Source: Thermoguttaceae bacterium
GTDB lineage: Bacteria > Planctomycetota > Planctomycetia > Pirellulales > Thermoguttaceae
Assembly: GCA_025060325.1 (NCBI GenBank)
Contig: JANXBW010000006.1
Span: 1 to 64,000, forward strand
DNA: 64,000 nucleotides
Reading direction: 5' to 3'
In this document: piece after piece, positions 6,349 to 30,161 of the stretch
Layout of the letters: every line of letters starts with the position of its first letter
Numbering within the stretch: position 1 is the stretch's first letter
Position numbers and translations under genes: made by a program
Notes under the pieces: generated by a model
Databases searched by the model: none
Told to the model about the DNA's origin: nothing
The model's input: only the letters and a program-made list of their open reading frames with translations

Positions 6349-7422
6349 ATGGTCCGCATGAGTCAGCGGCCAGTTGTGATGATCCCCGTGCTTTTCGGCG
6401 CGATCTGCTTTTTGCCGGGAGTCTTCGCCCAACTACCCGAACAAGGACAAGTCGAGCTTGAGCTTATTTTGGAACCAGGAGCACCGCCCACAGCCATGCA
6501 CGAGTGGGCTCGGACCCTGACGCAACTTGGCCTACCATCGGTACGAGCTACGACCGGCGATCGTTCGCAGCGACCGATGATCGAAGAGGTAGCCACCCCA
6601 ACCGGCACGCGCTACCGCGTTTACGCTGTGATTGACCTGCGGGGCGACCTCCGGCTCCCAGGTGGACGAAGGGTCACAATCGGCCAGGCCAGCCGACTCG
6701 TAGCTTGGCTGGAAGAGCTTGCCCGCAGCGGGCCAGAAGAAAAGCGCCCGAAAGTCGACCGCTTTGGACTGACGGCCGATGAGCTTCTTCGGCTCCGTCA
6801 ACAACTTGCTCTTGCCGTTGGCTTTCCCACCAAAGGGCGGCCGCGTCGAGAGGTTCTGGAAGAGGTTTTGAAAAAATCCCCGGTGGAAGTGATCGATCCG
6901 GCGGGACATATCGCTCGCATCGACCCCCAGGACAAAGTCAACGAAGAACTTTCGCACATGTCAACGGGCACAGCGGTTGCGTACTTGCTTCGGCCCCCGG
7001 GGCTGGCGATAGTTCCCACAAAAAAGGTCAACGCCGCGGGGAGCCGGGCGGTGATTGAGGTCGTTCGCGGGAGCGAAGCTAAGGAAATCTGGCCGATTGG
7101 CTGGCCTGCCATTAAGCCGGCCCCTGATCTGGTCCCGCAACTTTACCAATTCCTCGAAGTCAACGTCCAGGGCGTGAGCGCGGGTCGGGTCGTGGACGCT
7201 GTCGCCCAGCGGACGGGGCTACCTGTCCTTTGGGACTACAATGCCATGGCGCGGTGGGGAATCGATCCGGACAAAGGCTCCGTGCGTTTTCCGCCCAAAA
7301 GTACCTCCTATGCCCAGCTTCTCCGACATTGCCTCTTTCAGGCAGGGCTTAAGTACGAACTGCGTGTGGACGAAGCAGACAAGCCGTTCTTGTGGATAAC
7401 CACCTTAAAGCCCTTGGAATAA
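6349..7422 (+). CDS. Secreted protein of unknown function
   Basis: A 357-residue protein I do not recognise. It begins with a signal peptide (hydrophobic VVMIPVLFGAICFLPGVFA, likely cut before QLPEQ). The mature part has an N-terminal segment (GQVELELILEPGAPPTA), a charged helical middle, and a C-terminal part with SAGRVVDAVAQRTGLPVLWDY, reminiscent of short alpha/beta domains in planctomycete outer-surface or secretin-associated proteins; that likeness is weak. AAAGGAG 7 bases before the ATG at 6349 fixes the start. A large GC-rich hairpin follows the gene. Confidence 0.75.
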   Translation: MVRMSQRPVVMIPVLFGAICFLPGVFAQLPEQGQVELELILEPGAPPTAMHEWARTLTQLGLPSVRATTGDRSQRPMIEEVATPTGTRYRVYAVIDLRGDLRLPGGRRVTIGQASRLVAWLEELARSGPEEKRPKVDRFGLTADELLRLRQQLALAVGFPTKGRPRREVLEEVLKKSPVEVIDPAGHIARIDPQDKVNEELSHMSTGTAVAYLLRPPGLAIVPTKKVNAAGSRAVIEVVRGSEAKEIWPIGWPAIKPAPDLVPQLYQFLEVNVQGVSAGRVVDAVAQRTGLPVLWDYNAMARWGIDPDKGSVRFPPKSTSYAQLLRHCLFQAGLKYELRVDEADKPFLWITTLKPLE

Positions 7423-18402: not shown

Positions 18403-20955
<2,553 letters not shown>

Positions 20956-21324
20956 CTACACGTCCGTCTGCGTCTCGGCCCTACTGCGCCTGTCGGCTTG
21001 CGGGGAATTTGGCTTCCCAACCGTCCCGAGCCGAAACCGAAGCTCGCGAATCGTACGCCCCGGCAACTCCCGCTTCAGGGCCGAAAGAAGCTCTTCCTTG
21101 CGAAAACTAAGCTCCTGCAAGAGCACCGAGTGCTCAACCAGGACATCCATTCGACCGCGACGGGGAAGGGTCACAGCGGTTTGAGCGGCAATTTCCGGCC
21201 CAACGACCCGCTTCCAAGCGGCTTCGCACTCGGCACTGGCCAACACACGTCCAAAGCCTGCCTCAGCCGCCAGCTCCCCAAGGATCTCCGCCAAACTCTT
21301 GGGCCCACCCGATCCGCGTCGCAT
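20956..21324 (-). CDS. DciA/DUF721 family protein
   Basis: A 122-residue protein of the DUF721 family (PF05258), which includes DciA, a loader or partner of the replicative helicase in bacteria without DnaC-like loaders. It has the expected helical N-terminal half (LAEILGELAAE and the WKRVVGPEIAAQT segment) and the beta-rich domain with LVEHSVLLQELSFRKEELL. The tail is charged and short. GGGAGG with the ATG at 21324 sets the start. Its place between dnaN and gyrB is the usual one for this family and supports a replication role. Confidence 0.85.
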   Translation of the reverse strand: MRRGSGGPKSLAEILGELAAEAGFGRVLASAECEAAWKRVVGPEIAAQTAVTLPRRGRMDVLVEHSVLLQELSFRKEELLSALKRELPGRTIRELRFRLGTVGKPNSPQADRRSRAETQTDV

Positions 21325-21363
21325 GAGCACCTCCCGGGCCGAGCGATCGCCCCCCAGCCGAGC

Positions 21364-22476
21364 TTAGCCCTCTTCCATGGCCATTGGCATCAAGATGTAC
21401 GTGTATCCATCGCCCGTGGTAAAGACCACAGGACTCTTCGGGCCGCGGAATTCCACCTGCAGGGTCTGATCCGACTCCAAGGTGCCTAAGAAATCGGTCA
21501 AATACTTGGGATTGAGCCGAACTCGGGCCTCCGGACCCTCATAATCAAGCGCGATCTCAATCCGGCCCTCGCCGGTCCCGTGACCACGGGCGGAAAGGAT
21601 CAGTCGACCGCCGCGAAGATGAAAGATCACTCCGGGCGAAGTGGGATCGACCACGATCTGGGCTTGCCGCACCCCAGCTAGTAACTGTCCTGCGGCGATG
21701 GAAAACCGCACGTTTGCTGGGGTCCGAGGAAGCACGTCTCGCCAAGGGGGGAATCGCCCCTCAATCAGCCGAGATACCACCAGGAAGCTTTCCCCCCAAA
21801 TCTCTAAGATTGACTCTTGCGGACAAACGCACAGCTCCTCCTCGCTTCCCCCCACTGCCCGATCTACCAGTCGCAGGGCCTGAGGCAGAGCCACAACCCA
21901 ATCGACCTTCGGTTTGCCCACCTGCTTGGCAGTGCCTTCCTGCGCAGCCATCCGCCTGCCATCGGTACCTACCGCATAGATGCGCTCGGCCGAGAATTCC
22001 AAGTAAATACCCCCGAGGGCGTAATGCGGACTGTCCGGATCGATGGCAAAGGCAGTTCGCCGGATCAAGTTGTGAAGCACTTTGCCGGTTGTCACGTGAT
22101 AACCAGGCCGGTCCGTCCCAAAAACCGGGGGATATTCCAGCGGATCAGGGGTAGGCAGCTGGAATTCGCTACTTGAACCTCGCACTACAAGCTGGTCGCC
22201 GGCAGCTTCAATGCTCAGCTTTTCATCCGGGACCTCCCGCAAGATCGAGCCGAAACGACGCACCGGGAGCAGGGCCTCTCCGGCGGTGTGCACCTCCACC
22301 CCCTCGGCCTCGATGCGAAGGGCAATTTCCAAGTCGGTAGCTTCCAGATAGGCCTTGGAATCCTCCACTTTGAGCCGGACATTCTCCAAAATTGGCTTTG
22401 GCGTCCGACTAGGAACGACCGCCGCTGCAAGCGTGAAAGCCTCCAAGAATTTGGTCCTGTCGCAGGTTAATCTCAT
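21364..22476 (-). CDS. dnaN: DNA polymerase III beta subunit (sliding clamp)
   Basis: A 370-residue beta clamp that tethers polymerase III to DNA. The three repeated clamp domains are readable: MRLTCDRTKFLEAF... and the SRTPKPILENV segment at the N-terminus, HNLIRRTAFAIDPDSPHYAL in domain 2 with the GTDGRRMA motif, and the C-terminal YILMPMAMEEG close to the family's usual PMR-type end. Length is normal. GGAGG lies only 2 bases before the ATG. It is followed by the DciA-like gene and gyrB; upstream, a terminator separates it from the DnaA-like gene. Confidence 0.96.
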   Translation of the reverse strand: MRLTCDRTKFLEAFTLAAAVVPSRTPKPILENVRLKVEDSKAYLEATDLEIALRIEAEGVEVHTAGEALLPVRRFGSILREVPDEKLSIEAAGDQLVVRGSSSEFQLPTPDPLEYPPVFGTDRPGYHVTTGKVLHNLIRRTAFAIDPDSPHYALGGIYLEFSAERIYAVGTDGRRMAAQEGTAKQVGKPKVDWVVALPQALRLVDRAVGGSEEELCVCPQESILEIWGESFLVVSRLIEGRFPPWRDVLPRTPANVRFSIAAGQLLAGVRQAQIVVDPTSPGVIFHLRGGRLILSARGHGTGEGRIEIALDYEGPEARVRLNPKYLTDFLGTLESDQTLQVEFRGPKSPVVFTTGDGYTYILMPMAMEEG

Positions 22477-22974: not shown

Positions 22975-23961
22975 CTACTTCTCGCACTCAGCCCTTGGGC
23001 TAGGCGCGGTAGACCCGAGCGAACCCCCGGAGTGCTGAGCGAAAGACGCCTCGACGGCCGCTACACTGCTTTGCAGCACCGGGTCACTGGCAAGCTGGGC
23101 GGCAATCCGCCGGCAGGCATGGGCCACTGTCGTGTGATCGCGCCCGCCGAAGTACCGGCCGATTTGTTTCAAGCTCAGGCTGAGCCGCTCTCGGGCGAGG
23201 AACATCGCTACGTGGCGGGCCGTAGCGACCGCTCGATGCCGGGCCGAGCCGCGTAACTCGGCCAAGGACACCCCCCACAACCGAGCCACACTTTTCGCAA
23301 TAAAAGCCATCGCGCGGAGTGCCCATCCTCGCGAGCCGTGGCGGCCACGCCCACCCCCGGCACCCATTCCGGCGGGCACAACCTCGGCAAGGCCCTCTCG
23401 AGCCGGCTCCCAAAGCTCTGGGGCAGAAGATTGGCCTGGCGCTGCGACGGGCAGGTAACCGTACGGAATACACAGCCCGGCTTGGAGGCGGGCTCTAAGG
23501 CGAGGGGCAAAGCAGTCCCACTCGGTCAAGTTGAGGCCGATGCTAAGGATCGTTACCGCCCCGGTCTGTTCTAGTCCGTCTAAGATTCCGGCGAAGAACT
23601 CCTGGACCGGCGGATTTCGGCCGATAGCCTCTAAGCTGTCTATCGCCAGGAGGCCAGCACCCAGAAAGGACCGGCGCAGGTCCTCAAGCCGCTTGGTTTG
23701 GGCGGCGTCTCGGTAAGCTCGCGCAAGCTGCTTACCGGTCCACAGGATAGGAGCGGAGCCTCCACCCTTTTGCGCTAACCGTCGGCCAAGCTCGCGCGCA
23801 AGCCCCTTCCCGGCTTTGGGTGTCCTATATACCACCACCAGGGGAAAATGCCCGGCGCTTAACCAGCGGAAAAGCCGGACAGGGAAACACCCCCCTCCGG
23901 CCCCGGGAAGTGCTCCCGGTTGGCGCAAACTGCCCGTTTGGTCCGCGACGTCGCTAGCCAT
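22975..23961 (-). CDS. DnaA-like protein with degenerate ATPase domain
   Basis: A 328-residue homologue of the replication initiator. Domain IV is well conserved: residues about 222-300 include ARHVAMFLARERLSLSLKQI and FGGRDHTTVAHA, the DnaA-box recognition signature. The AAA+ part is present but ruined: the P-loop (normally GxxxxGKT) reads RTPKAGKG at residues 46-53, Walker B reads LLAIDSL instead of LLIDDIQ, and the lid with sensor 2 is replaced by a Pro/Gly linker (about 172-215). Domain I is absent. It could bind DnaA boxes without ATP switching. I start at ATG 23961 (GGAG 2 bases upstream, as for dnaN); the frame is open to 24036. A true DnaA may lie elsewhere. Confidence 0.82.
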   Translation of the reverse strand: MASDVADQTGSLRQPGALPGAGGGCFPVRLFRWLSAGHFPLVVVYRTPKAGKGLARELGRRLAQKGGGSAPILWTGKQLARAYRDAAQTKRLEDLRRSFLGAGLLAIDSLEAIGRNPPVQEFFAGILDGLEQTGAVTILSIGLNLTEWDCFAPRLRARLQAGLCIPYGYLPVAAPGQSSAPELWEPAREGLAEVVPAGMGAGGGRGRHGSRGWALRAMAFIAKSVARLWGVSLAELRGSARHRAVATARHVAMFLARERLSLSLKQIGRYFGGRDHTTVAHACRRIAAQLASDPVLQSSVAAVEASFAQHSGGSLGSTAPSPRAECEK

Positions 23962-24328
23962 CACTCCGCCCGTGGTTTGGCGAAATCCTTCGGGTTGTCT
24001 GCGATGGACCGCCAATTTAACGCCACGGGCAATCAAAAGGGTTAATTGTACCGGATCTTCCGTCCTCCCGCGAGTCCGATGTCTGGCCTGCGGGGGAAAC
24101 CTGCGGCGGATAAGGCAAAGGGATTAAGCCGTAGATTAGGCGCAAAGTTGGCCAGAAAATCTAGAGTGGTATTATCCCACCCCCTGGGAGTGAGAGGTTG
24201 TTTTCTGGCGGGTTAATTCCGATTGCGTCGCCGATTTGCCGATCCGTAAATTCTCCCGGTTCATTTGTGTCGGCTATGGATGGCTGCAGCGCTGGCGATC
24301 ACTGGTGCGGAATGGAGTCCGCTTAGGC
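23962..24328. other. Divergent intergenic region upstream of the DnaA-like gene
   Basis: About 370 bases that would be the other usual origin position. I see no DnaA boxes. A possible promoter for the PHP-type gene is noted separately. TATTATCCCAC resembles a DnaA box only loosely and I do not count it. Confidence 0.4.
24148..24175 (+). promoter_or_regulatory. Possible sigma-70-type promoter
   Basis: TTGGCC at 24148-24153 and TATTAT at 24170-24175 are separated by 16 bases, about 150 bases before the phosphatase-like gene. The match is fair at best. Confidence 0.3.
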
Positions 24329-29192: not shown

Positions 29193-30161
29193 CTAGTAGG
29201 CCGGGGGACTTTCCGCTTGACCAAACCGAGTTCCCGCCTTGATCTCGACGGCTTCGAAAGGTTCCACGTGAACAAGAACGTCGGCCAAGTCTTCCACTTC
29301 TTGGAGGAGTCGATCGCGGACAGCCGTCGCAATCCGGTGGCCCTCACGCACGGACAAGTCGGGGTCGACTAAGATGTGAAGGTCCACCTGAAGCTTCGCG
29401 CCGATGTAGCGCGAACGTATTTCGTGGGTCGCGCGAACACCTTCTGTTTGAAGCACCAGGCGGACGATCCGCTCGACTTCCTCCTCGCTCAATCCCGCGT
29501 CTGTGAGTTGGGCGATAGCTGGGACGATGATCGTCCACGACACGTACAGGATTAGGGCCGAAACCATAATCGCCGCCACGTGGTCTAAAAAGTGCCACTG
29601 TGGATAAAGCTTGCTACCTGCCACCGCCACGGCCACTGGCAGCGAACTGAGTGCATCGGAGCGGTGATGCCAGGCATTGGCCAGGAGGGCAGAGGAACGG
29701 TAGCGTTTACCCACCTGGAAAGTCCAGCGGAAAAGCCATTCCTTGCTCACCACCGAAAGGCAGGCGATCAGGAAAGCTAGCCACCCGGGCGAGCTGGCCA
29801 CCCCTTGGTGTAAAGCCACCAGGGCACTCCAGCCAAGTCCAATGCCCGCTGCCCCCAGGGCCACTCCAATGATGACGGAGACGACGGTCTCGATGCGGCC
29901 GTGGCCGTGTGGATGTCCAGCGTCGGCCGGACCGGTCCACCATCCCGCCCCCACAAGGACCACCACGTCGGTGACCATGTCGGACAGACTGTGGACGGCA
30001 TCGGCCACTAATGCTCGGCTTCCCGCAAGCCAGCCGGTGATAAACTTGCTGAGGGCAAGGGCCAAATTAACATAAAGCCCCACTCGTGTGACAAAGCGGA
30101 TGGCTTCCGCTTGGTCGGCATGAGGTCGGGGCGAGACTTGTTCCGCTATTTCGGTACTCAC
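29193..30161 (-). CDS. Cation diffusion facilitator (metal efflux) transporter
   Basis: A CDF-family secondary transporter that exports Zn, Fe or other divalent metals in exchange for protons. It shows about six membrane helices with metal-site motifs HSLSDMVTD (helix 2) and HHRSDALSS (helix 5), a His-rich HPHGHGR loop between them, and a C-terminal soluble domain (VDLHILVDPDLSVREGHRIA) that senses metal. The frame is open 48 codons further to 30305, into the upstream hydrolase gene; the family start is closer to the GTG at 30161, which I choose with modest confidence. Confidence 0.9.
   Translation of the reverse strand: MSTEIAEQVSPRPHADQAEAIRFVTRVGLYVNLALALSKFITGWLAGSRALVADAVHSLSDMVTDVVVLVGAGWWTGPADAGHPHGHGRIETVVSVIIGVALGAAGIGLGWSALVALHQGVASSPGWLAFLIACLSVVSKEWLFRWTFQVGKRYRSSALLANAWHHRSDALSSLPVAVAVAGSKLYPQWHFLDHVAAIMVSALILYVSWTIIVPAIAQLTDAGLSEEEVERIVRLVLQTEGVRATHEIRSRYIGAKLQVDLHILVDPDLSVREGHRIATAVRDRLLQEVEDLADVLVHVEPFEAVEIKAGTRFGQAESPPAY

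Follow-up and report, generated by a model that had tools for sequence, protein, structure and literature searches.

A DnaA paralogue at the planctomycete dnaN locus that keeps domain IV and has repeatedly lost its P-loop, beside an intact paralogue

Gene order and domain layout at the dnaN-gyrB locus

The window analysed here is a 64,000-nt stretch of the Thermoguttaceae bacterium assembly GCA_025060325.1 (contig JANXBW010000006.1, positions 1-64,000; its own genome is G000 in our numbering). By Pfam, its minus strand carries the gene order dnaA-like, dnaN, dciA, gyrB: an open reading frame for a DnaA homologue of 328 aa (22975..23961), the sliding clamp gene dnaN (21364..22476; PF00712, PF02767, PF02768), dciA (20956..21330; PF05258, 52.9 bits) and gyrB (18403..20949; PF00204, PF00986 and others). 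In the standard view DnaA is an initiator switched by ATP, and it marks the origin; its gene, dnaA, is usually linked to dnaN. An earlier note on this DNA had described the product of 22975..23961 as a DnaA homologue with a dead ATPase in the dnaN-gyrB locus, and both the homology and the layout are confirmed; domain IV (Bac_DnaA_C, PF08299) scores 87.5 bits, where the cut-off is 31.5. We refer to this protein, the short and mostly dnaN-linked DnaA paralogue, as S, and to the long, dnaN-unlinked paralogue as F; the window's protein also falls in the S clade of the trees described below. The AAA+ domain (Bac_DnaA, PF00308) is matched over its second half only, at 17.9 bits against a cut-off of 23, and the score for the DnaA equivalog TIGR00362 (cut-off 343.9 bits) lies below the cut-off for both S (110) and F (305.2). 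The 328 residues are counted from an ATG; the frame is open upstream as far as 24123, and a TTG at 24036 could also serve as the start.

Alignment to E. coli DnaA and to relatives reveals a degenerate Walker A motif, RTPKAGKG (residues 46-53; 23803..23826, minus strand), in which the first Gly and the Ser/Thr are gone and the Gly-Lys pair is still there. Walker B reads LLAIDSL and ends in Asp-Ser, its second acid gone (LLAIDS, residues 104-109; 23635..23652, minus strand). The sensor-1 Asp and the sensor-2 Arg are absent from the aligned protein, as is the FxxGPEN motif that is common among other S proteins. Where the AAA+ lid is expected, there is instead a Pro/Gly-rich linker that hardly aligns (residues 171-211; 23329..23451, minus strand). 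Arg158 (23488..23490, minus strand), the equivalent of E. coli R285, the box VII arginine finger, is kept. Domain IV (23104..23304, minus strand) is a canonical DnaA-box reading head that finds the DnaA domain IV structures of E. coli (1j1v) and M. tuberculosis (3pvp) by both sequence and fold. It reads IGRYFGGRDHTTVAHACR vs IGDAFGGRDHTTVLHACR in E. coli, is near-perfect, and carries the signature FGGRDHTT (residues 271-278; 23128..23151, minus strand), with the box-contact residues R399, R407, D433, H434, T436, and H439 all present in the alignment. The earlier note's readings of the P-loop, Walker B, lid and box-recognition signature are therefore upheld, and the alignment of domain IV and the AAA+ region that it had proposed finds box contacts kept and ATPase motifs broken.

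The same note had named an intact P-loop on resequencing as grounds for refutation. S is in the same broken state in G001 and G002, the other two genomes of the genus analysed, in different letters (CCPKGDG and SGACASGRAL), so that the Walker A pattern G-x4-GK[ST] is broken in all three members, each time differently, and the S frame is open in all three. Because the genus mates are broken too, in other letters, a sequencing or assembly error is very unlikely, and we rejected it.

Ahead of the AAA+ domain, the open frame in S of this genus amounts to 34-61 residues. PF11638 (domain I) had no match in the six S proteins scanned (the window's and five others) and was present in all three F proteins scanned. 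A structure model of S built from the three genus sequences (mean pLDDT 68.4, pTM 0.46) retains the alpha/beta core, with block means of pLDDT 87-95 over residues 71-160, where an AAA+ fold is predicted with high confidence; residues 171-211 are disordered in the model (pLDDT <50). The best PDB matches of the model in Foldseek are DnaA structures and, after them, Hda.

A full-length paralogue and the distribution of the pair

The earlier note had also allowed for a second, intact dnaA elsewhere, and searching the rest of the genome located one. F, a protein of 658 aa, is encoded on contig C11 (about 368420-370396) and matches PF11638, PF00308, and PF08299 with 27.3, 139.6, and 66.8 bits, respectively. 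Its Walker A (GPTSVGKT) and Walker B (LAIDDIQFL) are both intact, and its domain IV reads FFGRKSHSAV. The genome thus has two domain-IV (PF08299) matches, and at E <= 0.001 PF00308 is matched once, by F. With F on C11, the proposition that the genome holds no other dnaA was rejected. In the flanks fetched for 13 F genes of the class, dnaN was not seen. F is most likely the replication initiator in the window's genome.

With F at hand, it is conceivable, although very improbable, that S is a regulator of the Hda type, which would dock on F, perhaps together with the clamp, and use its arginine finger to trigger ATP hydrolysis. The retained finger, the rank of Hda structures after DnaA in Foldseek, the adjacency of S to dnaN and the standing of F as the one PF00308 protein at that threshold all fit such a role. 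However, no clamp-binding motif is conserved among the S N-termini, linkage to dnaN is ordinary for dnaA, and Hda, which binds nucleotide and the clamp, is not known to have a domain IV. TIGR03420 (Hda) was not among the S matches at E <= 1.

Two DnaA homologues are the rule among relatives. Across 60 genomes of the order (the window's own and 59 relatives), PF08299 has at least one match in 60 and at least two in 58; across 148 genomes of the phylum, 115 have at least two matches, 31 have one and 2 have none. Genomes of the order with two matches typically hold one short and one long frame, a few second matches being a fragment or another protein. One domain-IV match (locus L096, contig G003:C262) lies inside an ORF whose protein appears to resemble a REP-associated transposase; PF08299 alone therefore overcounts DnaA. 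Among plasmid records, 28 had a match, all below 60% identity, and among the 10 of these records listed, the annotated ones are dnaA.

In trees of DnaA domains III-IV (85 and 47 rows), the S proteins of the class form one clade (support 100 SH-aLRT; 100/99) with long branches, and F groups with second copies of other classes (support 97; 99/97). The sister of S is uncertain, with single-copy canonical DnaA in that place at support 93/79. The S/F pair is old, and two old DnaA paralogues are common in Planctomycetota. Besides the window, S adjoins dnaN in 22 of the 31 Pirellulales loci tested. At the remaining nine, eight of which fall in one tree subclade, dnaN was not seen within the few kb fetched; S is still kept at these loci (L100, L101, L103, L104, L105, L106, L108, L110, and L112).

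We surveyed PF00308 in 197 genomes of the order with at least 90% completeness, and PF08299 in 46 of those 197, comprising all genomes of family f8 and other low-count genomes. In f8, 14 of 34 genomes have a single PF08299 match, and 14/14 read proved to be F, carrying the head FGRRSHST and an unbroken P-loop. PF00308 too is matched just once in ten of these genomes (G043, G237, G242, G256, G262, G279, G295, G302, G322, and G332), among them all four sampled from genus g42; the remaining four, where PF00308 is matched a second time, were left out of the clean S losses. Outside f8, F only was found in G206, G230, G343, and G348, the F head of G206 reading FGGRTHTT. The opposite state, S only with the P-loop kept and no F, occurs in four scattered drafts (G207, G261, G339, and G341; loci L188, L185, L187, and L186, respectively). 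Congeners of all four have at least two domain-IV matches or at least two PF00308 matches, which makes missing sequence the simpler reason, and assembly gaps likely explain the absent F in these drafts. The non-detection of S in some relatives means that it cannot serve as an origin mark needed throughout, and its job is not general.

Origin position and candidate DnaA boxes

Within the window, cumulative GC skew is lowest at about 36-42 kb, some 12-18 kb from S. The skew is positive in 6/6 stretches over the next 120 kb of the window's contig and negative in 8/8 stretches on C11. Given this skew and their place on the minus strand, S, dnaN, and gyrB point away from a putative origin 12-18 kb upstream, and the data suggest that a replication origin lies inside the window, yet not at dnaN. 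In T. terrifontis, a member of the window's family, S is at one end of the record, dnaN at the other and F at 2.04 Mb; there the GC skew is positive in 8/8 stretches from 0 to 1.77 Mb and negative in 7/12 stretches from 2.0 Mb on. Both 20-kb stretches flanking S in G042 are negative, giving no sign of an origin at S.

Eight single-contig genomes (G042, G059, G077, G095, G166, G176, G201, and G347) were compared at their record starts: seven start at the short DnaA, and the G347 record starts at the long DnaA, as judged by frame length (550 aa). These starts suggest that the labelling of 'dnaA' is inconsistent across the eight. Passages in genome papers of the phylum describe chromosomes rotated to 'dnaA' (PMC5177795, PMC10923784, PMC13241502).

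The exact sequence TTATCCACA occurs 99 times in the window's genome, at dispersed positions (reversed control 13), 65 times in G001 (control 12) and 29 times in G002 (control 16). Markov models of orders 2 to 5 trained on 344 kb of own DNA predict 22.7, 27.9, 43.2, and 57.8 sites genome-wide, so the high-order models account for part of the excess. The window itself holds two exact sites, at 7391-7399 and 29599-29607 (both minus strand), and 15 sites with at most one mismatch vs 7.06 expected, a count reached in 1/100 shuffles; these 15 are spread out. We read 48 of the 99 sites, drawn from stretches chosen for sites plus nine in 344 kb not so chosen. They show no preference for non-ORF DNA, with 15/48 lying outside ORFs of at least 200 aa vs 0.27 of positions. 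A or T precedes the site in 36/48 vs 406/846 for other TTATC sites (p 3e-4), and the base that follows has no bias (p 0.28).

No convincing cluster of DnaA boxes near S emerged from the scans for exact and mismatched TTATCCACA, from an unbiased 9-mer cluster scan of the window from 14 to 64 kb, or from an alignment of the DNA between S and dnaN in the three genus members together with a repeat search. Within f8, box counts, tallied by hand, do not track the presence of S: the 20 genomes with at least two PF08299 matches have 109 sites vs 140 in the control, and the 14 genomes with one match have 122 vs 72, or 43 vs 63 when G242 is left out. G242, an F-only genome, has 79 sites vs 9 in the control, split 56 to 23 between the strands. 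The suggestion of the earlier note that this protein marks or regulates the origin is plausible in that the box contacts are kept and S lies less than about 20 kb from the GC-skew minimum, but the lack of a box cluster speaks against it.

Loss of the motor, constraint on the reading head and possible roles

Residues at E. coli DnaA positions were counted for the order in 56 S proteins and 28 F proteins. F retains the ATPase residues nearly throughout (K178 28/28, D235 28/28, D269 26/28, R285 27/28, R334 28/28). S retains the arginine finger R285 in 54/56 and the box contacts R399 in 54/56, R407 in 56/56, D433 in 54/56, H434 in 55/56, T436 in 56/56, and H439 in 51/56, but sensor-1 D269 in just 3/56 and sensor-2 R334 in 9/56; the D235 position is Glu in 30/56. 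F has Ser at D433 in 26/28 and at H439 in 23/28. With its sensor residues mostly gone, S has probably given up ATP hydrolysis in most of its members. The P-loop Lys is present in 49 of the 51 S proteins outside the P-loop-less genera (one has Arg, in G010, and one is cut off there), and the P-loop is gone in the window's genus, g1 (3/3), and in genus g179 of f8 (2/2 read; GSPAATT and GSREATS), where the lid is gone too. A 57-row tree places g179 among f8 S proteins that keep the P-loop (supports 84-99), giving two separate losses. Sensor loss in S thus extends over most of the order, and the P-loop has gone at least twice. The dead ATPase claimed at the outset accordingly holds in part: loss of hydrolysis is very likely in most S proteins, as judged from their residues. 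To go by its sequence, S of this genus has likely also stopped binding nucleotide, although the window's S still has the P-loop Gly-Lys.

All five P-loop-less S proteins keep R285. At columns conserved in at least 80% of the other 51 S proteins (25 in the AAA+ core and 20 in domain IV), these five keep the conserved residue at 0.54 in the core vs 0.91 in domain IV, and just 6/154 core columns are identical in all five, R285 and its neighbour among them. Between the window's genome and G001, dN is 0.76 for the S core, 0.20 for S domain IV, 0.19 for the F core, and 0.21 for F domain IV; between the window's genome and G002, the corresponding values are 0.89, 0.53, 0.36, and 0.30. In the nearer pair, S and F thus show about equal constraint on domain IV; in the farther one, constraint is somewhat weaker in S, and the S motor drifts faster than its reading head in both.

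These data bear on the main rival to the reading we favour below, namely that S is a decaying relic, an old dnaA displaced by F whose domain IV decays last. The graded series of losses (domain I absent, sensors mostly gone, P-loop and lid gone in some), the long branches of S and its non-detection in some f8 genera are what such decay would leave behind. A relic is nonetheless unlikely: against G001, domain IV is under equal constraint in S and F, though under less in S against G002; each of the three genus members has an unbroken S frame, the fold prediction is good, and S is retained in most of the order sampled. Furthermore, the dN of the AAA+ core against G001 (0.76) is below the dS estimate of 2.31, a value at which synonymous sites are near saturation.

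We favour, with somewhat better than even confidence, a reading in which S works on F, or next to it, as an accessory that binds DnaA boxes independently of ATP. The retention of the box contacts without the motor, twice, suggests that DNA binding is the selected trait, and from these residues S very probably binds DnaA boxes. An arginine finger kept in a protein that is probably unable to present ATP hints at an ATP-bearing partner, and F, the one further DnaA that the genome search located, makes an accessory of F the favoured role; that S acts through F is nevertheless put forward tentatively, and R285 may be retained for structural reasons, the number of lineages being two. Also weighing against this reading are the missing box cluster near S, the lack of enrichment of TTATCCACA outside ORFs, the f8 box counts, the absent clamp-binding motif, the genomes with no S detected and the four S-only drafts. 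In the accessory reading, F in the class of the window's genome, with domain I, a complete ATPase and a diverged domain IV, would perform ATP-dependent opening of the origin. S would sit on DnaA-type boxes regardless of nucleotide state, would modulate F (or transcription) at those boxes, and could perhaps offer its arginine-finger face to ATP-bound F.

A division of tasks could go further, nucleotide-free S finding the boxes and showing its arginine finger and ATP-driven F working with an altered head, so that S would form a platform or cap; we think this quite unlikely. In its obligatory form, a split initiator in which S gives the box address and the arginine finger, F gives the ATP motor and both are required, the idea draws on the reciprocal retention of D433 and H439 in S and mostly Ser at both in F, and on the finger present in 5/5 P-loop-less S proteins. 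This form is distinctly improbable: F of the 14 single-match f8 genomes carries the same altered head unchanged, F must work alone in at least ten clean cases there, and no box cluster was found at the locus. That F suffices in f8 with its reading head unchanged argues against an obligatory split.

S, which holds dnaA's place in the genome, has dropped the ATP switch under a reading head that is still constrained, and the working ATPase, F, which has a changed reading head, is encoded elsewhere. In these planctomycetes, calling the gene at the dnaN locus 'dnaA' therefore probably names the wrong protein. The natural series of S proteins, with the P-loop kept, the P-loop lost or the gene undetected, allows testing of which DnaA functions need ATP. 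A TraDIS transposon library of Planctopirus limnophila has been published (PMC10632474); the main text of that paper, to which this statement is limited, makes no mention of 'dnaA'.

DnaA paralogues and DnaA-derived regulators such as Hda are already known. The literature searched yielded no dnaN-linked DnaA with domain IV retained, repeated P-loop loss and an intact paralogue alongside, and the literature matches listed, a coverage outside which most subscription papers fall, contain no description of paired S and F proteins in planctomycetes. S resembles the DnaA initiator in its domain IV box contacts, its AAA+ alpha/beta core, its place before dnaN and its arginine finger, but differs from it in having no domain I, an altered Walker B, neither sensor 1 nor sensor 2 and no lid; S of the window's genus in addition has no intact Walker A. 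With Hda it shares the character of a DnaA-related AAA+ protein with an arginine finger and, apparently, a non-initiator, whereas its domain IV and the lack of a clamp motif set S apart. F is a paralogue of S with domains III and IV in the same order, unlike S in its domain I, its intact ATPase, its position away from dnaN and its domain IV (FGRKSHS vs GGRDHTT). Chlamydiae have two DnaA genes, and the S/F pair resembles theirs in that each PVC genome concerned carries two DnaA homologues.
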